A stretch of 64,000 bases of DNA from Gemmatimonadota bacterium (lineage in GTDB: Bacteria; Gemmatimonadota; Gemmatimonadetes; Gemmatimonadales; Gemmatimonadaceae): the NCBI GenBank assembly GCA_003223455.1, contig QHVE01000011.1:62001-126000 (forward strand). The letters run 5' to 3'. The translations under genes were made by a program, and so were the position numbers. This document shows, one piece after another, positions 4,907 through 52,194 of the stretch (the first letter of the stretch is position 1; each line of letters begins with the position of its first letter). Below the pieces are notes generated by a model, which was not told the DNA's origin, made no database searches, and saw nothing but the letters and a program-made list of their open reading frames with translations.

Positions 4907-5667
4907 GCGGCATGCTGTTGAATCTCGTCGTGGCGGGCCTCGTCGTCGGGTTCATGATCGGACTCACCGGCGTCGGCAGCGGCGCGCTGATGGCGCCCGT
5001 GCTGCTGCTGCTCGGCATTCCGCCCGCCACCGTCGTGGGCAGCGACCTGCTCTTCGGGCTGCTGACGAAGGTCGTCGGCGTCGGATCACACCTGCAGCAC
5101 CGCACGATCTCCTGGCGATGGGTGTGGGTGATGGCGATCGGCAGCGTGCCCGGCGTGCTGGTCGGCACGCGAATCCTCGCGCATTTCGCCGGGGCGCCGA
5201 AGACGATCCGCTTCCTGATCGGTCTCGTGCTCGTGATGACGCCGTTGCTCGCGCTCGTGATGGAGATCGCGCGGCGCCAGGATGCGCAGTGGGTCGAGCG
5301 ACTGCGTCACCCCAGCGGGCCGGCGATCGCGGCGATCGGCGCCGCCATCGGCATCACCGTGGGCGCGACGTCGGTGGGCAGCGGGAGCCTCGTCGACATG
5401 GCGCTCGTGCTCTTCTCGCCGCTCTCCGGCGTGGCGCTCATCGGCACCGGGATCGCGCACGCCGTTCTCATCACCGGGACCGGTGCCGCGGCGCACTGGA
5501 ATCTCGGCAACGTCGACCCTGCCCTCGTCGGGCAGCTTCTCATCGGCTCCATCCCCGGCGTGCTCGTCGGCGGATGGCTCGCCCGTCGGTCGAAGCCCGG
5601 CGCCGTGCGCTGGGGCGCGACGACGCTGGTTCTGCTGAGTGGCCTCACCCTTCTTTCCCGAGCCTGA
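4903..5667 (+). CDS. TauE/SafE-family sulfite/anion permease
   Basis: 254 residues, nearly all hydrophobic, with about seven to eight membrane helices and the two related halves of the TauE/SafE family (glycine-rich GLTGVGSGALMAPVL near residue 20 and GATSVGSGSLVDM near residue 160). Family members export sulfite or other organosulfur anions. Its position between cysH, which makes sulfite, and the sulfite reductase gene supports a role in sulfite export or in uptake of a sulfur oxyanion; direction is not determinable from sequence. ATG 4903 overlaps the cysH stop. Confidence 0.85.
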   Translation: MSGMLLNLVVAGLVVGFMIGLTGVGSGALMAPVLLLLGIPPATVVGSDLLFGLLTKVVGVGSHLQHRTISWRWVWVMAIGSVPGVLVGTRILAHFAGAPKTIRFLIGLVLVMTPLLALVMEIARRQDAQWVERLRHPSGPAIAAIGAAIGITVGATSVGSGSLVDMALVLFSPLSGVALIGTGIAHAVLITGTGAAAHWNLGNVDPALVGQLLIGSIPGVLVGGWLARRSKPGAVRWGATTLVLLSGLTLLSRA

Positions 5668-5670
5668 GAC

Positions 5671-7335
5671 ATGACCGGACCCACAACGACCACCCCCGAG
5701 ACCTCGACCGAGCTGACGCCGGTCAAGGAGACGCCGGCGCAGCGCGTCGAGCGCATCAAGCGCGAGAAGGCGCCGTGGTCGATCATGGACGACATCCGTC
5801 GCTACTCGCGCGAGGGCTTTTCGGCGATCTCGAACGAGGACCTGACCGTCCGCTTCCGCGCCTGGGGGTTGTACACCCAGGGTGACGGCCGCGGCACGCG
5901 CGGCGACGAGATGCCGTTCTTCATGATGCGCGTGCGGACACCCAACGGCTTCGTCACGTCGGACATGGTGCGACGCATCGCCGACATCTCGGACACGTAC
6001 GCGCGCAGCAGCATCGACATCACCAACCGGCAGAACTTCCAGCTGCACTGGCTGCGCATCGAGGACATCCCGACGATCTGGGAGTCGCTCGCCGAGGTGG
6101 GGTGGACGAGCATGGGTGCATGCGGAGACAACCCTCGCACGGTCACGGGTTGCCCGCTCGCCGGCGTGGAGCATGACGAGCTGATCGACGCGAGCCCGAT
6201 CGCGATCGCCGTCGACAAGCACCTCAACGGCAACCCGGAGTACGGGAACCTGCCGCGCAAGTTCAAGGTCAGCATCACCGGCTGCCAGCACTGGTGCTCA
6301 TATCCCGAGATCAACGACATCGGTGTGACGGCGGTGCGGCGCGCGGACGGCGTCGTCGGCTTCCACGTGCGCGTCGGCGGCGGGCTGTCGACGAAGCCGC
6401 ACCTGGCTGTGCTGCTCCCAGCATTCGTGCACGCGGAGCAGGTGCCGGAGGTCGTCGAGACAATCACGGCGATCTTCCGAGATTCGGACGAGCTTCGCGT
6501 CAACCGCGCGAAGGCGCGGATGAAGTTCCTCTTCGTCAACCACGGCTGGACGGCGGAGAAATTCCTCGCCGAGATCGAGCGTCGCCTCGGCGTCAAGCTC
6601 GACCCGCTCGCCGAAGAGCATCCGCCCGAGGGACACTATCGCGATCACCTCGGCATCCATCCGCAGAAGCAGGAGGGTCTCAGCTACGCCGGATACTCGG
6701 TGGTGTCGGGGCGGATCTCGCCCGCGCAGCTGCGCGGGCTGGCCGCGATCGCCGACGAGTTCGGCGACGGGTCGATGCGGCTCAGCGCGATGCAGAACAT
6801 CCTGATCACGAACGTGCGGAACGAGCGCACCGCCGAGTTGCTGGAGCGGAGCCGCGCGCTCGGTGTGGCGCTCGATGGTTCGCCCTTCCAGCGCGGCACG
6901 GCGTCGTGCACGGGCAGCGAGTACTGCAAGCTCGCGATCACCGAGACCAAGCTGTTCAGCATCCGGCTCGCGCAGGAGCTCGAGGAGCGACTGCCCGGAT
7001 TCACCGACACGGTAAAGCTGCACATCGCCGGATGCCCGAACTCCTGCGGTCAGCACCCGATCGCCGACGTCGGTCTGCAGGGCGTGCTGCTCAATCAGGG
7101 AGGCACGCAGGTGGAGGGATTCGACTTCTTCGTCGGTGGCGGCCTCGGAAAGAACAGCACACTGGGTCATCGCGTCGGCTTCCGCGCCCCCGCCGACGAT
7201 GTGCCCGAGGTGCTCGAGCGACTCTTCTCGACCTACGTGGCGCAGAAGCAGGACGGCGAGAGCGTGCGATCGTGGACGAGCCGCGTCGGTGATGCGACGG
7301 TGAAAGCCGTGCTGGGAGGCGCGGGGCTCTCGTGA
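5671..7335 (+). CDS. sir: Ferredoxin-type sulfite (or nitrite) reductase, siroheme/4Fe-4S
   Basis: 554 residues with two ferredoxin-like half-domains and two 4Fe-4S/siroheme domains. The cofactor ligands are visible as CTGSEYC (C-x5-C) and CPNSC (C-x3-C) near residues 412-456. Sulfite and nitrite reductases share this architecture; the position directly between the cysH/tauE genes and cysK makes six-electron reduction of sulfite to sulfide the likely reaction. No flavoprotein partner (CysJ) is nearby, consistent with ferredoxin as donor. No siroheme synthase gene is in the window. Starts 3 bases after the previous stop. Confidence 0.88.
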   Translation: MTGPTTTTPETSTELTPVKETPAQRVERIKREKAPWSIMDDIRRYSREGFSAISNEDLTVRFRAWGLYTQGDGRGTRGDEMPFFMMRVRTPNGFVTSDMVRRIADISDTYARSSIDITNRQNFQLHWLRIEDIPTIWESLAEVGWTSMGACGDNPRTVTGCPLAGVEHDELIDASPIAIAVDKHLNGNPEYGNLPRKFKVSITGCQHWCSYPEINDIGVTAVRRADGVVGFHVRVGGGLSTKPHLAVLLPAFVHAEQVPEVVETITAIFRDSDELRVNRAKARMKFLFVNHGWTAEKFLAEIERRLGVKLDPLAEEHPPEGHYRDHLGIHPQKQEGLSYAGYSVVSGRISPAQLRGLAAIADEFGDGSMRLSAMQNILITNVRNERTAELLERSRALGVALDGSPFQRGTASCTGSEYCKLAITETKLFSIRLAQELEERLPGFTDTVKLHIAGCPNSCGQHPIADVGLQGVLLNQGGTQVEGFDFFVGGGLGKNSTLGHRVGFRAPADDVPEVLERLFSTYVAQKQDGESVRSWTSRVGDATVKAVLGGAGLS

Positions 7336-8333
7336 GCACGCTGGCGCATCCTGCCACCGACCATGCACCCCGCCCCGAGGGCGCGGGCGCCGGTCACCGC
7401 GTCGACGCGGTGATCGGACGTACGCCCGTCGTCCGCCTCGAGCGCGTGGCGACGCCGGCGATGGCGGAGGTGTGGATCAAGCTCGAAGGGGCGAATCCGG
7501 GAGGCTCGATCAAGGATCGCACGGCGCTCGGGATGATCCTGGATGCCGAGGCGCGCGGCATCCTCAAGCCGGGCGACACGATCGTCGAGCCGACCTCGGG
7601 GAACACGGGAATCGGTCTCGCGCAGGTGGCCTCGGCGCGCGGGTACCGGTTGATCCTGTGCCTGCCCGATTCGGCCAGTGACGAGCGCAAGCGCACCCTC
7701 GAGGCCTATGGCGCGGAGCTGGTGCTCACGGACCCCGAGCGCCGGATGCTCGCGGCGATCGAGGCGGCGGAGCAGATCCGCGACGAAACGGGCGCCTGGC
7801 TGCCGAATCAGTTCTCGAATCCGGCCAATCCGCGCATTCACTACGAGACCACGGCGCCCGAGCTCTGGGCGCAGCTCGACGGGCGGATCGACGCATTCGT
7901 GTACGGCTCGGGAACGGGCGGGACGATCACTGGCGTGGGGCGATTCCTCAAAGAGCGCCGACCGGAGACGCTGATCATCGCGGTGGAGCCGGCGCGGTCG
8001 CCCGTGCTGTCCGGCGGCCAGCGCGGCCAGCACCAGTTCCAGGGGATGGGCCCGGGGTTCATCCCGGACAACCTGGATCGCTCGCTGCTCGACCGGGTGA
8101 TCCCGGTGTGGGAGGAGGATGCGTTCCCCGTGGCGCGCCGGCTGGCGCGCGAGGAAGGGCTGTTTGTAGGAATGTCGAGTGGGGCCATCGCCTTCGCGGC
8201 GCTGCAGGTGGCGACCGCGTTGGGTCCTGGCAAGCGCGTGGCGATGATCGCACCGGACACGGGAGCGCGGTACCTGTCCACGGTGCTGTTCTCGCCCGAG
8301 GACACCCCGGACCCCACGCACGTGGTGCTGTAG
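7332..8333 (+). CDS. cysK: Cysteine synthase (O-acetylserine sulfhydrylase)
   Basis: 333 residues, fold-type II PLP enzyme. Lys61 in GGSIKDR binds PLP; TSGNTG, GSGTGGT and GMSSGA are the substrate and phosphate-binding loops. Condenses sulfide with O-acetylserine to cysteine, the last step of the operon. The GTG start overlaps the stop of the sulfite reductase (GTGA, 7332-7335), supporting this start. An N-terminal extension of about 25 residues precedes the conserved core. O-phosphoserine or cystathionine-synthase activity cannot be excluded. Confidence 0.93.
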   Translation: MSTLAHPATDHAPRPEGAGAGHRVDAVIGRTPVVRLERVATPAMAEVWIKLEGANPGGSIKDRTALGMILDAEARGILKPGDTIVEPTSGNTGIGLAQVASARGYRLILCLPDSASDERKRTLEAYGAELVLTDPERRMLAAIEAAEQIRDETGAWLPNQFSNPANPRIHYETTAPELWAQLDGRIDAFVYGSGTGGTITGVGRFLKERRPETLIIAVEPARSPVLSGGQRGQHQFQGMGPGFIPDNLDRSLLDRVIPVWEEDAFPVARRLAREEGLFVGMSSGAIAFAALQVATALGPGKRVAMIAPDTGARYLSTVLFSPEDTPDPTHVVL

Positions 8334-8397: not shown

Positions 8398-8895
8398 GCC
8401 ATTTCGCGGGGCGCCGGTCGGCAAGGGATTGCTGGATGACCGTTCAAACGTGCAGAAACGGCCGGACAACCAGCACGAGAATACACTTTTTTCGCCGAAT
8501 TGCCGATAAATGCGGCACTATTTTGCATTTTTTGCAATCTTGGCTTGACACCCGGATTTTGTTGTCCTACTTTGCCGGCGTGACCGATCAACCTGCTGTG
8601 CCGGCCCCCTCCTCCCCGTTCGGTAAGCGCTCGGACGCCGTGTCGCGCGCGCGTCATCGCGCCGGCACGTCGAATCGCGGCTCGAACCGACTTGGGCGGA
8701 GGGAGAAGGAACCGAACAATCGCACGGCGGGACGGGCTGCACGCTGAGCATGACGCAGGACCGAGCGTGAGCGCCGCCCGCCCCCGTGCATCGCCAGGCG
8801 ACATGGGGGCTTCGCATGTGTCCGACACGGACCGGCGCGCAGGAGTTCGATAGACCATCGCAGAGCGGCCCACTCACCATCACTGAGGAGCGAAC
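8398..8895. other. Long intergenic region and ammonium-transporter leader
   Basis: About 500 bases without a convincing gene. The first half is unusually AT-rich for this genome, with T-tracts and two TTTTGCA copies just before a promoter (8545-8573). The second half would be a transcribed leader of about 310 bases. Its most obvious structure is a two-step hairpin at 8780-8810 (8-bp stem with one G-T pair, then a perfect 4-bp stem), not followed by T residues. The long leader suggests post-transcriptional control of the ammonium transporter, but no known RNA family is recognised. Confidence 0.5.
8545..8573 (+). promoter_or_regulatory. Sigma-70-type promoter for the amt cluster
   Basis: A perfect -35 box TTGACA (8545-8550), a 17-base spacer and TACTTT (8568-8573) as a -10 box, preceded by an AT-rich UP-like stretch. 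It is the best promoter match in the window and is oriented toward amt. The region has no sigma-54 GG/GC pair, although nitrogen genes often use sigma-54 elsewhere. Confidence 0.6.
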
Positions 8896-10464
8896 ATGGA
8901 ATCGCGGGGACACTCACCAATGCGGCGAGCGTTGATCGCAGGAGCGGTACTCGCCGCGGTTGCGGCGCCGACCGTTCTCTTAGCCCAGGCAGCGGCGCCC
9001 GCGCCGCCGAAGATCGAGGACGTCGCCAAGGCGGTTGCGGACAACGGCGCGGCGCTGAACATGGTCTGGACGCTCGTCGCCGGCTTCCTCGTGATGTTCA
9101 TGCAACTCGGCTTCGCCATGGTGGAGACGGGCTTCACACGCGCCAAGAACGCCGGCCACACCGTGACGATGAATTTCATGGTGTACGCGATCGGCATGCT
9201 CGCCTACTGGGTCGTCGGCTTTGCCATCCACATGGGCGGCGTCGGCGCACTCGGCACGCTTGGCGGCTACGATGGCCTGAACTCGATGTTCACGATCACC
9301 GTCGGTGGCCACGAGTGGGGCCTGTTCGGGATGAAGGGCTTCTTTCTGACCGGCGTCGCGTACAACGCGTCGGTGTTCGCCTTCTTCCTGTTCCAGATGG
9401 TGTTCATGGACACCACGTTGACGATTCCGACTGGCGCGCTCGCCGAGCGGTGGAAGTTCTCGTCGTTCTGCATCTTCACGGTGTTCCTCGGTGCGATCAT
9501 CTACCCGGTGTTCGGCAACTGGGCGTGGGGTGGCGGGTGGCTGTCGGCACTCGGGCGCAACGTCGGCCTCGGGAACGGCTACGTCGACTTCGCCGGCTCC
9601 GGCGTGGTGCACCTCACGGGCGGCGTGATCGCCCTCGTGACCTGCAAGTTGCTCGGACCTCGGCGCGGGAAGTTCAACGCCGACGGGTCGCCGAACGTGA
9701 TCCCCGGCCACAACATCCCGATGGCGATCTATGGCACCTTCGTGCTCGCCTTCGGCTGGTTCGGCTTCAACGCCGGCTCGACACTCGCCGGCACCGACGT
9801 CCGCATCGGCGTCGTCGCGACGAACACGATGCTCGCCGGCGCCGCCGGTGCGATCTCGGCGATGGCCTGGGTGTGGATGAAGTACGGCAAGCCTGATCCG
9901 TCGATGCTCGCGAACGGCATGCTCGCGGGGCTCGTCGCCATCACGGCGCCCTGCGCGTTCGTCACCGCGCCGTCGGCCGTGGCCATCGGTCTCATCTCCG
10001 GGCTGCTCGTGTGCTGGGCGGTGGTGTTCTTCGAGCGGACGCTCAAGCTCGATGATCCCGTCGGCGCGATCTCGGTGCACGGCGTGAACGGCGCGTGGGG
10101 TCTGATCGCCGTCGGCATCTTCGCTGATGGCACGTACGGTGGTGGACTGAACGGGGTGGCGGGCAACGTCACGGGCCTGCTCTATGGCGGTACCACGCAG
10201 CTCGTCGCGCAGGTCGTCGGCATCTTCGCGAACTTCGTGTGGGTGGGCGCCTCTGCCTACGCCGCGTGGAAGATCACGAGCGCCGTCACGAGCGGCAGCC
10301 GCGTCAGTGCGGCGGTCGAGGAGCTCGGGCTCGACATCCCGGAGATGGGCGCGCTGGCCTACCCCGATCGCGGCGGCATGACGACGGGCGTGGTATTGGC
10401 GCACGCCGAAGCGCCGTCGCTCAGCAGCACCGCCAGAGACTTCGCCCCGGTGGCGGGCGACTGA
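8896..10464 (+). CDS. amt: Ammonium transporter (Amt/MEP/Rh family)
   Basis: 522 residues. A cleavable signal peptide (about residues 1-31, ending LLAQAA) precedes the 11-helix Amt core. Family marks: FVMVETGFTRAKN-like FAMVETGF, DFAGSGVVHLTGG (His239) and DDPVGAISVHGVNGAWG (His395), the twin-histidine pore. Moves ammonium across the inner membrane. GAGGAG at 8885-8890 fixes ATG 8896. The cytoplasmic tail (SAAVEELGLDIPEMG) is the usual PII-contact region. Followed after 97 bases by the PII gene, the classic amt-glnK pairing. Confidence 0.95.
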   Translation: MESRGHSPMRRALIAGAVLAAVAAPTVLLAQAAAPAPPKIEDVAKAVADNGAALNMVWTLVAGFLVMFMQLGFAMVETGFTRAKNAGHTVTMNFMVYAIGMLAYWVVGFAIHMGGVGALGTLGGYDGLNSMFTITVGGHEWGLFGMKGFFLTGVAYNASVFAFFLFQMVFMDTTLTIPTGALAERWKFSSFCIFTVFLGAIIYPVFGNWAWGGGWLSALGRNVGLGNGYVDFAGSGVVHLTGGVIALVTCKLLGPRRGKFNADGSPNVIPGHNIPMAIYGTFVLAFGWFGFNAGSTLAGTDVRIGVVATNTMLAGAAGAISAMAWVWMKYGKPDPSMLANGMLAGLVAITAPCAFVTAPSAVAIGLISGLLVCWAVVFFERTLKLDDPVGAISVHGVNGAWGLIAVGIFADGTYGGGLNGVAGNVTGLLYGGTTQLVAQVVGIFANFVWVGASAYAAWKITSAVTSGSRVSAAVEELGLDIPEMGALAYPDRGGMTTGVVLAHAEAPSLSSTARDFAPVAGD

Positions 10465-38656: not shown

Positions 38657-41050
38657 CTACCTCGCGGCCCTGAGCTTCACCTTCACTGTCGTCCCCTTCC
38701 CCAGGGTCGACGCGATCGTCACCGTCCCGCCCCATCCCTCGACGAGCCGCCGGGTGATGGCCAGTCCGAGCCCGCTGCCGGACGTCCGCGTCGAGAAGTG
38801 GGGCTCGAAGAGGCGCGGCAGGATGTCGTCGGCGATGCCGGTGCCGTCGTCGGTCACCGCGATCTGCACGGCCGGCGCGCCGTCCTCGAACGCGTCGTCG
38901 CAGACCGTAGCGGTCACCTCGCTCGCCTTCGCCAGGCGTGCGTTCTCGAACAGGTTGAGCAGCACCTCCCGGAGCTCGTCCCCCCGGGCCAGCGCGTGTG
39001 TCGAGCGCGCCCTCACCTCGCACCGCCACGCCACCTGGCCTTCGCCGAGCGTCTCGAGCGTCACGACGTCGCGCACGATCTCTCCGACGTCCGTCGGCTC
39101 GGCCGGTGGCTGCTCCTCGGGCGCGCCCCCGTAGCGACTGAAGGCGCGCGCGATCTCGTCGAGCCGGTCGATCTCGTTCAGGATGCGCGTCACGTTCTGG
39201 TCGAGCACCTGATCGTAGTCCGGTCGTCCTCGCGCGCGGCGGAGATGCTGCACACCGAGTCGGATCGGCGTGAGCGGATTCTTGATCTCGTGCGCGACCT
39301 GTCGCGCCATCTCGCCCCATGCCAGCACGCGCTGCGCGTGCGCGAGCTCGGTGACGTCGTCGAGCGTGAGCACCGCTCCGCCGCTCGACAGTCGCGACAG
39401 CTGCCCGCGCAGCGAGCGTCCGTCACGCTCCATCTCGAAGGCGTCCTCGTGTCCATCGCTCCGCAGGAAACCGGCGAGCCGCGCCGCCACGGCGGACGAC
39501 GACATCCGGCTCACCGGTTCACCGGCGCGCGGCACGTCGCCGAGCAGAGTCTCCGCCCGCGGGTTCGCGAGGATGACTCGGCCCTGCTCGTCGACGGCGA
39601 CGACGCCGCTGGCCACGGTGCGCAGCACGGCATCCGTGCGGCGCTGCGCTTCCTCGAGCGCGGCTCGGCTCGCGCCCAGGTCCTCCGCCATCGCCTCGAA
39701 GGCGCGGAACACGGGGAGAAACTCGCTCGTCGCCTGGCCCTCGAATGGGAGCTCGCGCTCGCCGCGAGCCACCGCGTGCGCCGCATTGCGCAAGGCTCCG
39801 ATCGGTCTCGCGAGCTGACGTCCCGCGACGGCGCTCAGCCAGAGCGCCGCGACCGCGCCCACGGCCGTCGCGAACAGCACGAGCACGCCGAGGTCGCGTC
39901 GCCGCCGGTCGAGCTGTACGTCGTCTACACGCGCCGGCGCCGCGAGCACCAGGGCGCCATGCGACCCCGGCAAGACGCGGTAGCCCATCATGCCCGTTGC
40001 GCCCGCGAGCGGCTCGGACCTCGTCGCGCTCACCTCGTCCGACACCAGGACCTCGTGCACGTTGGGCCGCAGCAACGAGCCGAGTGGCGCAAGCTCGGCG
40101 AACAACGAATCGCTCGCGTCGACGAGCACGCCGGCGTCGTACAGCAGCAGCTTCGTGTCGAGCCGCAGACTCTCTCGGCGCAGCCAGTCCGGCTGCCGGC
40201 GATCGCCGGCCACCGCCCGCATCGTCTCCGTCACAAGCAACTGGCGCGACTGCTGGGCGTCGTCGAACAGCTGCTGCCAGCTCCAGATCGCGAACGCCAC
40301 GGCGGGCACGAGAAAAAACAGGAATAGCGCCAGCGACAGTCGCGTGCGATAGCTGCGCACGCGTCGGCGCCGTATTCGGAGCCAGCGGCCGATGCGACCG
40401 TCCGCCGTGGCCGACAACAGCCACACCAGCCCGACGGCGGCGAGATCGATCAGGAGCAGCAGCCCACCGCGTGGAATCAGCGAATCCAGGCCACGCAGAT
40501 CGACTTCGACGTGCGCGCGTGCCGGGCCTTCGGGGCTCGCGATCGGCCAGTCGCCATGCAGCTCCGAGCCGAGACGGCGCCAGTTGATCGACTCGCGCGG
40601 CGCGAGCGGATCGCCCACGACCTGCACCGTGTACGGCGGCTCGATCGCCTCACCGGGATTGAGCCCGTACCAGCGTGCGTACGCGTCACTGCCGATCAGC
40701 CGGGTGCGCGGCGCGAGGAGGATCGTGACCGCACCGCCGCGCATCGGCACGGCGACGACCCGTACGCCATATGCGCTCACGCGGTACGCAGTCTCCACCG
40801 GCGTCCCCTTCTCCGCCTCGAGCGCGGCGAGGCGCACGGCGTCCCAGGCCACGCCGAATGGCGCCGAGCCGAAGCTGGCGATCGGTCGTTCGCCCTCCCA
40901 CGCCGTGAGCGCGGCCGGATAGCCCGATGCAGCGAGGTCCGACAGCACGTACTGCTCGAGGAGGCCCTGCGCCGTGCGGGGCAACGTGTCGCCTCCGGCC
41001 GATCGGCTGACGCGCGGGCTCGCCCAACGCATGCCCGGCAGCGAGGTCAC
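38657..41050 (-). CDS. C-terminal part of a split NtrY-like sensor histidine kinase
   Basis: 797 residues as an open frame, but residues 1-22 are encoded by an inverted-repeat copy and are not real sensor sequence. From about residue 23: a sensory segment, a membrane helix near 205-220, a second near 240-260, an extracytoplasmic loop, a third helix, HAMP (RQLARPIGALRNAAH), PAS (VASGVVAVDEQGRVILANPRAE), HisKA with His587 (VAHEIKNPLTPI, the NtrY/NtrB form) and HATPase (LLNLFENAR, TDDGTGI, GSGLGLAIT). It should phosphorylate a response regulator, but none is nearby. The upstream membrane half is in another frame (40686-42566). Confidence 0.8.
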   Translation of the reverse strand: MTSLPGMRWASPRVSRSAGGDTLPRTAQGLLEQYVLSDLAASGYPAALTAWEGERPIASFGSAPFGVAWDAVRLAALEAEKGTPVETAYRVSAYGVRVVAVPMRGGAVTILLAPRTRLIGSDAYARWYGLNPGEAIEPPYTVQVVGDPLAPRESINWRRLGSELHGDWPIASPEGPARAHVEVDLRGLDSLIPRGGLLLLIDLAAVGLVWLLSATADGRIGRWLRIRRRRVRSYRTRLSLALFLFFLVPAVAFAIWSWQQLFDDAQQSRQLLVTETMRAVAGDRRQPDWLRRESLRLDTKLLLYDAGVLVDASDSLFAELAPLGSLLRPNVHEVLVSDEVSATRSEPLAGATGMMGYRVLPGSHGALVLAAPARVDDVQLDRRRRDLGVLVLFATAVGAVAALWLSAVAGRQLARPIGALRNAAHAVARGERELPFEGQATSEFLPVFRAFEAMAEDLGASRAALEEAQRRTDAVLRTVASGVVAVDEQGRVILANPRAETLLGDVPRAGEPVSRMSSSAVAARLAGFLRSDGHEDAFEMERDGRSLRGQLSRLSSGGAVLTLDDVTELAHAQRVLAWGEMARQVAHEIKNPLTPIRLGVQHLRRARGRPDYDQVLDQNVTRILNEIDRLDEIARAFSRYGGAPEEQPPAEPTDVGEIVRDVVTLETLGEGQVAWRCEVRARSTHALARGDELREVLLNLFENARLAKASEVTATVCDDAFEDGAPAVQIAVTDDGTGIADDILPRLFEPHFSTRTSGSGLGLAITRRLVEGWGGTVTIASTLGKGTTVKVKLRAAR

Positions 41051-41052
41051 GG
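40984..41052 (-). repeat. 69-bp perfect inverted repeat, secondary copy
   Basis: Identical, in reverse complement, to 41918-41986 over 69 bases with no mismatch. This copy lies exactly where the kinase reading frame breaks and, read in the kinase frame, encodes a peptide unrelated to sensor domains. It therefore looks like the inserted or misplaced copy. Confidence 0.97.
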
Positions 41053-41917
41053 CGTCCGCGCGACGTCGCGCCCCACACCACCGTAGTGGCTCCCAGCGCA
41101 GCGACCGATGCGGCGGAGAGGAGCCAGTAGCGGCGTCGTCGCGTGGCCACGAGTGCGGCCACCGCGGCGACCCAGAGGAGCGCGTACCACTCCGGCCACT
41201 GACCGGGTGCCATCCACACGAGCGGGGCGACGATGGCGGCGAGCATCGCCACCGCGGGCCCCGCGGCGGAGTCGGCGCTTCGGCGTCCCGCCAGTGCCGA
41301 TCGTCCGCCCCATGCGGCGAGGACGAGCAGCGTCGTCGCGGCCAGGCAGAGCGGAATCTCCCACATCAGCCAGAGCGCCGCACCGGCGCCTTCCGCCGGT
41401 GGCGTGATCCCGCGCGAGAGCGTGCGGACGAAATACGGACCCAGCACGGCGCCGAGGATCCCGATCGCCGCGCCGACGAGACGCGGTGGACCGCGGCGAA
41501 TGCGACGCACGACGAGGAGTGCGGCCAGCAGCATCGTGGCCGAGGTGAGCGTCAGCGCAGCGGCGTTGGACGTGTACGCTCGCCCCGCCCCGAGGAAGTA
41601 GATCGAGGCGTCGAACAGGCGCGAGCGGGTCGAGAACTCGCTCAGGGGCACGACCGCGATCGCGCGCAGGACGACCAGGACCGCACCCAACGTCGCGAAG
41701 GCACCCGCTTCGCGCCGGGAGGCGGCGATGAGGAACGCCACGAGCGCGATCAGGAGCGAGACGCCGACGCGAACGCGGGCGCGCTCGCGCATCCGGAAAC
41801 GGACCTCGTCCGCGGAGGGGACGATGGCTCGCGCGACGAACAGCGGCCGCCCATGATCGCTGTAGCGCAGGGCGTCCCGACCAGTCGAGTCCCTCGGCGT
41901 GGAGAAGATGAACCCTT

Positions 41918-41986
41918 CCGTGACCTCGCTGCCGGGCATGCGTTGGGCGAGCCCGCGCGTCAGCCGATCGGCCGGAGGCGACACGT
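41918..41986 (-). repeat. 69-bp perfect inverted repeat, original copy
   Basis: Partner of 40984-41052. Here the sequence is in frame inside the membrane sensor half and encodes YVSPPADRLTRGLAQRMPGS, with sensible sequence on both sides, so this is the likely original copy. The 865 bases between the two copies code for eight membrane helices in the present orientation. Confidence 0.97.
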
Positions 41987-42618
41987 AGAGCAGCGAGGTC
42001 GTGACCGCGCGGACGCCGCCGCTATCCGATGCCGCGTAGAGCGTGAGCCCGAACGGCGTCGCGACCACTCCGGACGGACCCGTCAGCGCCCGGGGATTGG
42101 CGTGCAGCGTTCCCGCCCATCCGAGCAGCGTGTCGCCGTGTACCACCAGCGCGCTGCGCCGGACCTGATCGCCGACGACGCGCTCCAGCGAGTGCGAGAC
42201 GTCATCGGTCGTCCCGACGAGGCGGCGGGCGCGGGTGGCAGCGGCACGCAGCGCGGCGAGCTCCGCGTCGACACGCGACGCGAGGAGCTTCTGCTGCGCC
42301 GCGGCCTGCTGAGCGCCCACGGCAGTCGGGTTGGTCGCGAACCGCGCGAGCCGCTGCTGAGCGCCCGCCGCCATGACGGCGAACGCGAGAAGCGCGACGC
42401 ACGATATCGCGAGCGGCAGGCGCAGCGCCACGCGCCGCGGACGCGCGACCGTTTCGACGATGCCCACCGCGGTGGCGAGGAGACAGATCGCTAGGTAACC
42501 TACGCGCGGCGTGGCGAGCCATCGGCTCGCTGCCAGGACGCCCACGGCGACCGCGGCCGGCGCCACCAGCGCGCGCCATCCCGCGGACGGCAGCGCTCGC
42601 TCGAGCAGAGTCCTCAGG

Positions 42619-47120: not shown

Positions 47121-48365
47121 ATGCCATTCGTCGAGGCCATCCGGCTCGCGCTGCAGCAGATCTGGGTGCAGAAGCTCAAGAGCTTCTTCACCCTGCTCGG
47201 CGTGATGATCGGCGTCACCTTCCTCATCGCCGTGGTCTCGATCGTGGGGGGCATGAGCCGCTACATGACCGACCAGGTCGTCGGGAAGATCATGGCGGTC
47301 AACTCGTTCGAGCTGCGGCACCGCCCGAACATCAACCTCGGCGAGATGACCGAGGAGCGCTGGCGCGAGCTGCGCCGGCGCCCGCGCATCAAGGAATCGG
47401 ACATCCAGCCGGTGACCGACGCGCTTCCGCCCGACGTGAGGTGGGCGGCAGTCGGGAACGACAACCTCAGCGCCCAGTCGCGGTACGTCGCGAAGCCGCG
47501 TCAGGTGAATGCCTTCACCGTGACCGACGGCTACTTCGATGTGAAGAAGATGGCGCCTGTGAGCGGCCGGCTGTTCTCGCCGCAGGAGTACGAGCGCGGG
47601 ATGCCCGTGATCGTCATCGGCCAGGACGTCGCCAACTACTTCTTCCCCGCGCTCGACCCGGTGGGTCGTGAGCTCGTCGTGCGCGGGATCCCCTACACCG
47701 TCGTCGGCGTGATGGAGAAGCAGGGGAGCGCGTTCGGGATCTCGTTCGACAAGTTCATCGTCGCCCCGCACAAGTCGCCAATCAATCGGTACGTCAACGC
47801 GCACAACGTCATCGACGCGATCATGATCCAGACGGCGAGCCGCGAAGGGCTGCTCTCGACGATGGAGACCGTGCGTCAGGTGATGCGTGCGCGGCACCAT
47901 CTGCGTCCGAGCCAGAAGGACGACTTCGAGCTCGAGACGTCGGATTCGGCGCTCGAGTTCTGGAACAAGATCAAGAGCTATCTCGTGTTCGCCGGCGTGG
48001 CGCTGCCGGCGATCGGCCTCGTCGTCGGCGCGATCGTGATCATGAACATCATGCTCGTAGCCGTCGCCGAGCGGACGCGCGAGATCGGCATCCGGAAGTC
48101 GCTCGGCGCGCGTCGGCGCGACATCATGAGCCAGTTCCTCGTCGAGAGCGCGACGCTGAGCACCGTGGGCGCCGCGCTTGGCGTCGCGACCGGGTTCGCG
48201 TTCGCCAAGCTGATCGCCGCGGTCACGCCGCTGCCGGCAGCGGTCGAGCTGTGGTCCGTGCTGGTCGGCATCGGCATCGGAGCCGGTGTAGGGATCGTGG
48301 CGGGGGTCTACCCGGCGAGCCGCGCCTCGCGGCTCGATCCGATCACCGCGCTGCGGGCGGAGTAG
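47121..48365 (+). CDS. MacB-type ABC permease, pair 1 member A
   Basis: 414 residues. MacB layout: first helix (SFFTLLGVMIGVTFLIAVVSIV), a 200-residue periplasmic domain, and three C-terminal helices with the EIGIRKSLGARRRDIMSQF coupling loop and ending LDPITALRAE. Very similar to the protein at 49694 (shared opening EAI.LALQQI.VQKLKSFFTLLGVMIGV and ending), showing duplication. Begins 10 bases after the ATPase. Confidence 0.9.
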   Translation: MPFVEAIRLALQQIWVQKLKSFFTLLGVMIGVTFLIAVVSIVGGMSRYMTDQVVGKIMAVNSFELRHRPNINLGEMTEERWRELRRRPRIKESDIQPVTDALPPDVRWAAVGNDNLSAQSRYVAKPRQVNAFTVTDGYFDVKKMAPVSGRLFSPQEYERGMPVIVIGQDVANYFFPALDPVGRELVVRGIPYTVVGVMEKQGSAFGISFDKFIVAPHKSPINRYVNAHNVIDAIMIQTASREGLLSTMETVRQVMRARHHLRPSQKDDFELETSDSALEFWNKIKSYLVFAGVALPAIGLVVGAIVIMNIMLVAVAERTREIGIRKSLGARRRDIMSQFLVESATLSTVGAALGVATGFAFAKLIAAVTPLPAAVELWSVLVGIGIGAGVGIVAGVYPASRASRLDPITALRAE

Positions 48366-48368
48366 GCC

Positions 48369-49625
48369 ATGGCCAATCTCCAGCAGCGACTGCACGTCCT
48401 CCGCGAGGGCGTGACGATCGCCCTCGACTCGATCCGCGCGAACAAGGTGCGCGCGGGCCTCACCATCCTCGGCATCGCCGTGGGCGTGTTCGTGGTGGTG
48501 GTGATCTCGGCGGCCATCCACGGCATCAATGCCAGCGTCGCGAAGGACCTCGAGAGCACGGGCCCGACCACGTTCTTCGTCTCGCGCTTTCCGATCAGCT
48601 TCGAGGCGTGCGACGGCACCGACGAGACCTGCAAGTTCTTCCGCAATCCCCGGCTCACGCTGGCCGATGTGGACGCGCTGCAGCGGCTCCCGACCGTGCG
48701 CACCGCCGGCGCCCGGCTCGATACGCAGCGCGCCATCGCCTACAAGGACCGTCGCATCCGCTCGGTGGACGTCAACGCGTTCACCGGCAACTGGCAGCAG
48801 ATCGACGGCGGCGGCGACATCTACCCGGGGCGCAACTTCACGCAGAACGAAGCGACGACCGGCGAGCGCGTCGTCGTGATCAACGACGAGCTGGCCAAGC
48901 AGGCGTTCGGCGATTCGGATCCGCTCGACAAGACCATCGAGATCGGCGACGTGCCGTTCAAGGTCCTCGGCATCTACCACTACCAGGCGAGCTTCCTCTC
49001 GGGGGGCAACAAGCCTCGCGCGATCGTGCCGATCGAGTCGGCGCGCAAGCACCTGAAGGTGAACTGGAACGACATCGGGATCGCCGTCATCCCGGTGGCG
49101 GGAGTGACACGCGCCGAGGCGATCGACGACGTCATCGCCTCGATGCGCGGGCGCCACGCCCTGCGCCCGAGCTCGGAGAATGACTTCGCGATCATCACGC
49201 AGGACCAGCTGTTCGAGGTCTACAACAAGATCTTCGGCGCTTTCTTCCTCGTGATGCTGGTGCTGTCGGCCGTGGGCCTGATCGTCGGCGGGGTGGGCGT
49301 GATCGCCATCATGATGATCTCGGTCACCGAGCGCACGCGCGAGATCGGCGTGCGCAAGGCGCTTGGCGCGACCCGCGCCACGATCCTCTGGCAGTTCCTC
49401 GTCGAGGCCGTGACGCTCACCGGGATCGGCGCGATCATCGGCCTCGTCTGCGGCACCGGCGTCGCGGTCCTCATCAAGAGCCTGACGCCCGTTGCGGCCA
49501 GCGTCCCACCGATTGCCGTGGTGGCCGCACTCGCGACGAGCTGCGTCACGGGCGTGCTGTTCGGCATGCTCCCGGCGGCGAAGGCGGCGAAGCTGGATCC
49601 GGTGACGGCGCTCAGATACGAGTAG
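48369..49625 (+). CDS. MacB-type ABC permease, pair 1 member B
   Basis: 418 residues. Same fold as member A but a distinct subfamily: opening DSIRANKVRAGLTILGIAVGVFVVVVI, coupling loop EIGVRKALGATRATILWQF, ending LDPVTALRYE. Its periplasmic domain carries two cysteines (EACDGTDETC) that could form a disulfide. Closest relative in the window is the protein at 50935. Starts 4 bases after member A, so a heterodimer of A and B is likely. Confidence 0.9.
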   Translation: MANLQQRLHVLREGVTIALDSIRANKVRAGLTILGIAVGVFVVVVISAAIHGINASVAKDLESTGPTTFFVSRFPISFEACDGTDETCKFFRNPRLTLADVDALQRLPTVRTAGARLDTQRAIAYKDRRIRSVDVNAFTGNWQQIDGGGDIYPGRNFTQNEATTGERVVVINDELAKQAFGDSDPLDKTIEIGDVPFKVLGIYHYQASFLSGGNKPRAIVPIESARKHLKVNWNDIGIAVIPVAGVTRAEAIDDVIASMRGRHALRPSSENDFAIITQDQLFEVYNKIFGAFFLVMLVLSAVGLIVGGVGVIAIMMISVTERTREIGVRKALGATRATILWQFLVEAVTLTGIGAIIGLVCGTGVAVLIKSLTPVAASVPPIAVVAALATSCVTGVLFGMLPAAKAAKLDPVTALRYE

Positions 49626-49668
49626 GCCATCGGCGCTGACACTTCCACGCGCCTCGATCCGTAGGCCC

Positions 49669-49690
49669 GGTACCTTCCTCCGCCAAGGTA
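49669..49690 (+). promoter_or_regulatory. Hairpin over the ribosome site of the second permease pair
   Basis: GTACCTT (49669-49675) pairs perfectly with AAGGTAC (49684-49690), which contains the only purine-rich ribosome-binding candidate before ATG 49694. The left arm also holds TACCTT, the same -10-like box seen before 34524. So this site may lower translation of the second pair, or provide an internal promoter. Confidence 0.35.
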
Positions 49691-49693
49691 CGC

Positions 49694-50932
49694 ATGCCCT
49701 TCCACGAGGCCATCTGGCTCGCGCTTCAGCAGATTCGTGTCCAGAAGCTCAAGAGCTTCTTCACTCTGCTCGGCGTGATGATCGGCGTCATGTTCCTCAT
49801 CGCCGTCGTCTCCATCGTGACGGGGATGAGCAAGTACGTCGAAGAGGACTTCGCGGGCCGCGTGCTCGGCGCGAACACCTTCACCCTCCGCCGCTTTCCC
49901 TGGTTCGGCAACAACGTCACCGAGGAGATGTGGCGGGAGTGGCAGCGGCGACCGCGGGTGTACCACAGCGACGTCGCCGTCATTCGTGAGGCGCTGCCCG
50001 CGGGGACGAACTACGCCGTCGAGAGCCAGGAGAACCTGCAGGCCACCAGCAAGTACGCCCGGGCGCGGCAGCTCGAGGCGCACGCCGTTGAGGGCGACTA
50101 CTTCACCATCAAGAAGCTCGACCTGAAGGACGGACGCGTCTTCTCTCAGCAGGAGCAGGAGCTCGGCGCGCCGATCGTCGTGATCGGCGACGAGATCGCG
50201 AGCTACTACTTCGAGGGACTCAATCCGATCGGCCGCGAGCTGCGCATCGGCGGGATTCCCTACACGGTCATCGGCGTCATCGAGCATCAGGGAAGCCTGT
50301 TCGGCCAGTCGATGGATGCCACGGCGTACGCGCCGTTCGGCTCCCCCCTGCACCGGCTGACCAATCCACGCGGCGACATCGACGGGCTGATGGTCCAGGC
50401 CCCGAACGCCGTGATGATGGACGAGGCGATGGAGGTGACGCGCGAGGTGATGCGCGGGATGCGGCACCTTCGGCCCGGCACCCCGGACAACTTCGTCATG
50501 GAGACGTCGGAGACCGCGCTCGCTTCCTTCCAGAAGACGAAGCAGGTGATGACGATCGCGGGCACCGCGCTGCCGGCGATCAGCCTCGTGGTCGGCGGGC
50601 TCGTGATCATGAACATCATGCTGGTCGCCGTCGCCGAACGCACACGGGAGATCGGCGTGCGCAAATCGCTCGGCGCGCGGCGCAAGGATATCCTCCGCCA
50701 GTTCCTCGTCGAGAGCGCCACGTTGAGCACCCTCGGCGCGATGCTCGGGATCGCGCTCGGCTTGCTGGGCGCCAAGATCATCTCGTGGACCACGCCGCTC
50801 CCCGCCGCCGTCGCCCCGTGGTCGCTGGTGGTCGCGACGCTGCTCGGCACGGTGGTCGGCATCACGTCGGGCGTGTACCCGGCGCGCCGCGCCGCCCGCC
50901 TCGACCCCATCGACGCGCTGCGGGCAGAGTGA
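49694..50932 (+). CDS. MacB-type ABC permease, pair 2 member A
   Basis: 412 residues, paralogue of the protein at 47121: same first helix, same coupling loop (EIGVRKSLGARRKDILRQF) and same terminal LDPIDALRAE, with a diverged periplasmic domain. Separated from pair 1 by 68 bases holding an inverted repeat. Probably shares the single ATPase and adaptor of the operon. Confidence 0.9.
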   Translation: MPFHEAIWLALQQIRVQKLKSFFTLLGVMIGVMFLIAVVSIVTGMSKYVEEDFAGRVLGANTFTLRRFPWFGNNVTEEMWREWQRRPRVYHSDVAVIREALPAGTNYAVESQENLQATSKYARARQLEAHAVEGDYFTIKKLDLKDGRVFSQQEQELGAPIVVIGDEIASYYFEGLNPIGRELRIGGIPYTVIGVIEHQGSLFGQSMDATAYAPFGSPLHRLTNPRGDIDGLMVQAPNAVMMDEAMEVTREVMRGMRHLRPGTPDNFVMETSETALASFQKTKQVMTIAGTALPAISLVVGGLVIMNIMLVAVAERTREIGVRKSLGARRKDILRQFLVESATLSTLGAMLGIALGLLGAKIISWTTPLPAAVAPWSLVVATLLGTVVGITSGVYPARRAARLDPIDALRAE

Positions 50933-50934
50933 CG

Positions 50935-52194
50935 ATGCGAATCCTCACCTCGGCAAGCCAGGCGTTCGAGGGAGTCGGCATCGCCTTCGACGCGCTCCGC
51001 TCCAACAAGGTCCGCGCCGCGCTCACGATCATGGGCGTCGCGCTGGGCGTGTTCGTCGTCGTCGCGATGTCGTCGGTCGTGAAAGGCATCAACGAATCGT
51101 TCCGTCGTGATCTCGAGGCATCGGGACCGACGTCGTTCTTCATCTATCGTCGTCCGATCGGCGGATTCACGCGGCCACCCGAGTGGACGCGCAACAATCC
51201 CGGGATCACGCTCGACGAGGTGCGCATGCTCGAGCGCATCCCGACCATTCGCGCCGTCACGGCGCACGTCGGGATGGGCGCCGGGTTCCGCTACAAGGAC
51301 AAGTACATCCCCCGTGCGGGGATGGAGGTCTACACGCCGAACTGGGTCGACGTCGACGGCGGCGACATCTATCCCGGGCGGAACTTCAACTACGCGGAGA
51401 ACGCCAAGGGCGCGAAGGTCGCGCTCGTCAACGACAAGCTCGCCGCGCAGCTGTTCGGCGAGTCCGAGCCGCTCGACAAGATCATCAAGATCGACAACGT
51501 CGACTTCCAGGTGATCGGTCTGTATCACTACACGGCCAGTCCGATGGGGACACCGACGTCTGGCGGTCAGGGCGACTCGCCGAAGGCGATCATCCCGTAC
51601 GAGACGGGCAAGCGCCACCTCGACATGTGGCTCCGCGGCACGGACCTGATCGTGAAGCCGCGCGCCGGCGTGACGACGCAGGAAGCCGTCGACGACGTGA
51701 CCGCCGCACTGCGCGGCTACCGCGCGCTCCGGCCCAGCCAGCCGAACAATTTCGAGATCGTCACGCAGGATCGCCTCTGGTCGATCTACACGAAGCTGTT
51801 CGGCACCTTTTTCGTCGTCGGGCTCGCGCTGTCCTCGGTCGGCCTGCTCGTCGGCGGCGTCGGCGTGGTCGCGATCATGATGATCTCGGTCACGGAGCGC
51901 ACACGCGAGATCGGCGTGCGCAAGGCGCTCGGCGCAACGCGCTGGACGATCCTCTGGCAGTTCCTCGTCGAGGCCGTGACGCTCACCGGCATCGGCGCCT
52001 CGGTCGGCCTCGCGCTGGGCATCGGTGTGGCGATCGGCGTGCGGACCGCATGGCCCGCCGTTCCCGCCACGACGTCGTGGAGCACGGTCGCCGCCGCGCT
52101 CGGCATCAGTGCAGTGACAGGCATCCTTTTCGGCATGCTGCCGGCGATCAAGGCGGCTCGGCTCGATCCGGTGGTGGCGTTGCGGTACGAGTAG
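50935..52194 (+). CDS. MacB-type ABC permease, pair 2 member B
   Basis: 419 residues, paralogue of the protein at 48369 (SNKVRAALTIMGVALGVFVVV; EIGVRKALGATRWTILWQF; ending LDPVVALRYE). The two cysteines of its relative are absent and a longer proline/glycine loop (TPTSGGQGDSPKA) is present, hinting at different substrates. ATG 50935 lies 2 bases after member A. Followed by a strong hairpin terminator. Confidence 0.9.
   Translation: MRILTSASQAFEGVGIAFDALRSNKVRAALTIMGVALGVFVVVAMSSVVKGINESFRRDLEASGPTSFFIYRRPIGGFTRPPEWTRNNPGITLDEVRMLERIPTIRAVTAHVGMGAGFRYKDKYIPRAGMEVYTPNWVDVDGGDIYPGRNFNYAENAKGAKVALVNDKLAAQLFGESEPLDKIIKIDNVDFQVIGLYHYTASPMGTPTSGGQGDSPKAIIPYETGKRHLDMWLRGTDLIVKPRAGVTTQEAVDDVTAALRGYRALRPSQPNNFEIVTQDRLWSIYTKLFGTFFVVGLALSSVGLLVGGVGVVAIMMISVTERTREIGVRKALGATRWTILWQFLVEAVTLTGIGASVGLALGIGVAIGVRTAWPAVPATTSWSTVAAALGISAVTGILFGMLPAIKAARLDPVVALRYE

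Follow-up and report, generated by a model that had tools for sequence, protein, structure and literature searches.

Inverted repeats inside a gene can be of very different origin. In phase variation by inversion, such repeats flank an invertible segment of DNA. A mutational origin is described by the four-point template-switch model, in which one exact inverted repeat is formed together with a replaced segment (Walker et al., 2021, PMC7954356). For metagenome assemblies that include scaffolding, gaps and local assembly errors have been described, with incorrect gene sequences as a result (Chen et al., 2020, PMC7111523). The sensor histidine kinase locus examined here resembles all three. It shares with invertible switches the inverted repeats bordering a segment within a gene, with four-point template switches the replacement of native sequence by an exact inverted copy of DNA close by, and with the reported assembly errors a short unsupported sequence in the native one's stead, broken genes and wrongly sized scaffold gaps in the draft. 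A local assembly error appears to be much the most likely origin of this repeat.

The interrupted sensor kinase gene

The window, that is the whole stretch of DNA analysed, comprises 64 kb (G000:C57:62001-126000) of a draft of 4.96 Mb in 127 contigs, most probably a metagenome-assembled Gemmatimonadaceae genome. It has a single inverted repeat of at least 30 nt (20-nt seed), which is far above chance expectation. The two arms are exact reverse complements of each other at 69 of 69 positions and are separated by 865 nt, both being associated with an NtrY-like sensor histidine kinase gene (Table 1). The outer arm is in frame within the sensor half, corresponding to about residues 194-217 of a 626-aa ORF. 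Position 41052 is precisely where the sensor frame breaks off, and from 40984 the kinase half follows in a different frame. These three features, namely the exact arms, the in-frame outer copy and the change of frame at the inner copy, were read correctly in the first-pass annotation.

Table 1. Parts of the NtrY-like sensor histidine kinase gene and arms of the inverted repeat, in window coordinates.
Feature	Position	Strand	Basis
Sensor (membrane) half of NtrY-like sensor histidine kinase gene, native	41053..42566	-	Residues 1-505 match the continuous protein of relatives
Outer arm: native coding sequence, source of the copy	41918..41986	-	Unbroken alignment in all relatives covering the arm
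Inner arm: exact inverted copy of 41918-41986, in place of about 99 nt of native coding sequence	40984..41052	+	Exact match and relatives
Kinase half of the same gene (membrane segments, HAMP, PAS, HisKA, HATPase_c), native	38657..40984	-	C-terminal part of relatives' proteins, Pfam

Pfam analysis of the kinase half identified HATPase_c (5.7e-22) as well as HisKA, HAMP and PAS domains, while the sensor half gave no Pfam match. The latter possesses approximately eight hydrophobic segments, of which six (residues 265-452) fall between the two arms and two are upstream of the outer one. The annotation had placed eight helices between the arms; this number holds for the sensor half as a whole, but only six lie within the 865 bp.

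The site in related genomes

Up to its end at 41052, the sensor half, which corresponds to residues 1-505 of the 626-aa ORF, shows 54-60% identity to one continuous protein in relatives of the same genus. For the kinase half (from 40984), identity to the C-terminal region of these proteins is 68-75%. Seven of these relatives are informative (G001-G006 and G009; loci L005-L007 and L009-L012). All seven have a single uninterrupted gene at the site, with exactly 33 strongly conserved residues between the parts corresponding to the two halves, and the inverted copy is absent from the site in every one of them. Two genomes of the same family (L013, L014) are likewise intact at this position. G008 (L008) was left out because its open frame no longer follows the alignment just ahead of the site, and G007 was left out of the kinase comparison as its kinase gene was not recovered. 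The relatives obtained by protein search are metagenome-assembled Gemmatimonadaceae or Gemmatimonadetes.

The 33 codons (99 nt) of the relatives are represented in the window by 67 nt, every one belonging to the inverted copy, and it is this net loss of 32 nt that causes the frameshift of the kinase. The outer arm is considered native, and hence the source of the copy, because its alignment is unbroken in the relatives that cover it. Replacement of native sequence had been suspected from the window by itself, with the proposal to align the gene to intact homologues and see what was lost at 41052. This comparison bears out the suspicion and identifies the missing part as the 33 conserved codons. 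The sequence at the kinase site is therefore in conflict with the relatives and breaks a conserved gene, as would be expected of an assembly error. No second copy or paralogue of the kinase was found elsewhere in its own assembly. The relatives' version of the missing stretch has nothing unusual in its GC content or folding, and these unremarkable sequences speak against GC or hairpins as the cause of a gap.

The gene could alternatively be a functional split gene, encoding sensor and kinase as two separate proteins, the latter possibly starting at GTG 41050. The 797-aa open frame from this codon does contain all the catalytic domains. However, its first 22 codons would consist of the patch itself, no Shine-Dalgarno-like sequence is visible by eye ahead of the GTG, and the gene is fused in all informative relatives. 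With the patch as first codons and the relatives fused, a working split gene is very improbable.

An ON/OFF switch of the kinase by inversion of the 865-bp segment between its 69-bp repeats was also put forward in the first-pass annotation. Exact inverted repeats do border a segment within the sensor gene, and 69 bp could serve homologous recombination. This idea is contradicted by the relatives, which have one fused gene and no repeat at the site, and by the reading frames. The present orientation is frameshifted, and in the opposite one the inverted sensor frame enters sequence lacking the six helices of the segment, an exchange of helices for other sequence that the annotation had foreseen. 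Thus neither orientation yields an intact kinase and, unlike in known invertible switches, there is no functional alternative orientation. A linked invertase, another feature of such switches, is also lacking here: serine recombinases (PF00239) were not found in the assembly, and its three tyrosine recombinases (PF00589) are all on contigs other than that of the kinase gene. Five neighbouring genes encode a protein kinase, an aldehyde dehydrogenase, a creatininase-family protein, an outer-membrane efflux protein and an HlyD-type protein, none of them a recombinase. Given the relatives, the frames and the failure to find an invertase, phase variation can be given practically no credence and was rejected.

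Similar patches elsewhere in the draft

A scan for near-copies was performed on 2.39 Mb (48%) of the draft, considering exact copies of at least 20 nt lying within 5 kb of each other and with unrelated flanks. Exactly three isolated exact near-copies of at least 60 nt are present in the scanned 2.39 Mb, the kinase patch included, two of these being inverted and one direct. Isolated near-copies of 20-30 nt were left out of this count, as by eye they resemble shared motifs in paralogous genes or repeats.

The second inverted copy is 199 bp in length and also exact (C6:6840-7038 from C6:7597-7795, 558 nt apart; L039). It breaks the middle of an SDR dehydrogenase gene, where relative G007 has 64 residues (192 nt) and the draft has 194 nt of the copy. 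Its source gene resembles, by eye, one of the dihydrofolate-reductase/RibD type. The direct copy is an exact one of 69 bp (C81:127621-127689 from C81:126620-126688, 1001 nt apart), at positions 7621-7689 and 6620-6688 in the numbering of L178 (G000:C81:120001-137780). By eye, its source gene resembles that of a PQQ-type sugar dehydrogenase and its target that of an M1 aminopeptidase. The M1-type gene is longer in relatives by about 60-70 nt at the patch, where the reading frame happens to survive, and a further deletion of about 43 nt some 0.5 kb beyond the patch does shift the frame. In both the SDR and M1-type genes the relatives have different native sequence at the patch.

All three patches replace native coding sequence, and two of the three are exactly 69 nt long. 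The distance from copy to source, centre to centre, is 934 bp for the kinase, 757 bp for the SDR gene and 1001 bp for the M1-type gene. The patches have no gene, motif or orientation in common, but they are alike in that each has its source no more than about 1 kb away and lies in coding sequence. This would be expected of wrong gap closure with locally recruited sequence, and the occurrence of a like defect on C6 and C81, unrelated to gene content, also points to the assembly. As a direct copy cannot invert, the pattern to which the kinase patch belongs is a further argument against an invertible switch.

The sampled 2.39 Mb also has 62 runs of N, ranging from 2 to 266 nt. The reading frame is kept across such runs in eight of 23 same-strand coding pairs, compared with 92% at N-free control places. 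As the frame is mostly lost, most of the runs appear to be wrongly sized scaffold gaps, and exact masking was rejected for the set. One contig of 254 nt (G000:C65, L099) consists entirely of N and may be masked.

Origin of the kinase patch

Of the three explanations originally offered for the repeat, an assembly error, a template switch and an ON/OFF switch, it is the first that is best supported, by the comparison with relatives, by the two comparable patches in other, unrelated genes and by the wrongly sized scaffold gaps. The kinase patch is thus very probably a local assembly error in the draft. A short part of the gene, some 99 nt long judging by the relatives, may have been missed in the assembly, and the hole may then have been filled with 69 nt of the same gene from about 0.9 kb away, in the wrong orientation. 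This source would be close enough to be reached by read pairs anchored next to the hole. The patch would accordingly be the product of a bogus gap closure and not of replication in the cell, and the real organism most likely has one unbroken kinase gene without an inverted repeat. Two observations count against this reading: the kinase patch has neither adjoining N nor a long overlap with its own flanks, and the missing stretch is unremarkable in the relatives. Inverted near-copies such as those found here do not feature in the main text of Chen et al. (2020, PMC7111523), and a literature search for gap closing with inverted copies found nothing.

A real and recent template switch is the other candidate, although an unlikely one. 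Here, replication would have jumped to the opposite strand some 0.9 kb away, taken 69 nt from it and come back to the original template about 99 nt beyond the point of departure, breaking the kinase gene. The presence of an exact inverted copy of nearby sequence (69/69) is what such an event would leave, the anatomy of the site matches the four-point model, and exact identity would imply that the event was recent. However, the set of patches would call for three or more events in half a genome, all of them recent, independent of each other and within genes, and one of them a direct copy, which differs from four-point template switches. The range of 0.75-1 kb also exceeds that of short-range events, which span tens to hundreds of nt (Walker et al., 2021, PMC7954356). 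In addition, junction homology appears to be negligible: inspection by eye of the relatives' sequences gives a possible source-target homology of about 1 nt or less at each kinase junction, and of 2-3 nt in the SDR case.

Should the patches be real, double template switching would be frequent in the bacterium or its population, acting over a long range (about 1 kb) and in one orientation or the other, and would overwrite 69-199 nt of coding sequence. Such a state of affairs is improbable, and a mutational process this frequent would be surprising. The case for a local assembly error carries a caution, in that a perfect inverted repeat inside a gene of a draft genome can mimic either a template-switch mutation or a switch for phase variation. 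A search of the draft for further isolated near-copies, combined with a comparison of relatives, quickly reveals the pattern.

Several other repeats were encountered. Loopless palindromes of 24-60 bp occur in the draft and were considered as the same artefact, a suggestion that was rejected as many of them, by eye, resemble a tRNA arm or terminator hairpins. Long palindromes, perfect or nearly so, are located in L119 (G000:C85) at 5482-5541 (60 nt) and in L123 (G000:C89) at 5790-5855 (28-nt arms with a 10-nt loop). The motif GGGGTCAGACTCCTT is found in L119 and also in L103 at 8762-9057, and resembles a dispersed repeat. Within the window, positions 47193-51989 have several exact direct repeats of 25-44 nt with a constant spacing of approximately 2570 nt, suggesting tandem paralogous genes.
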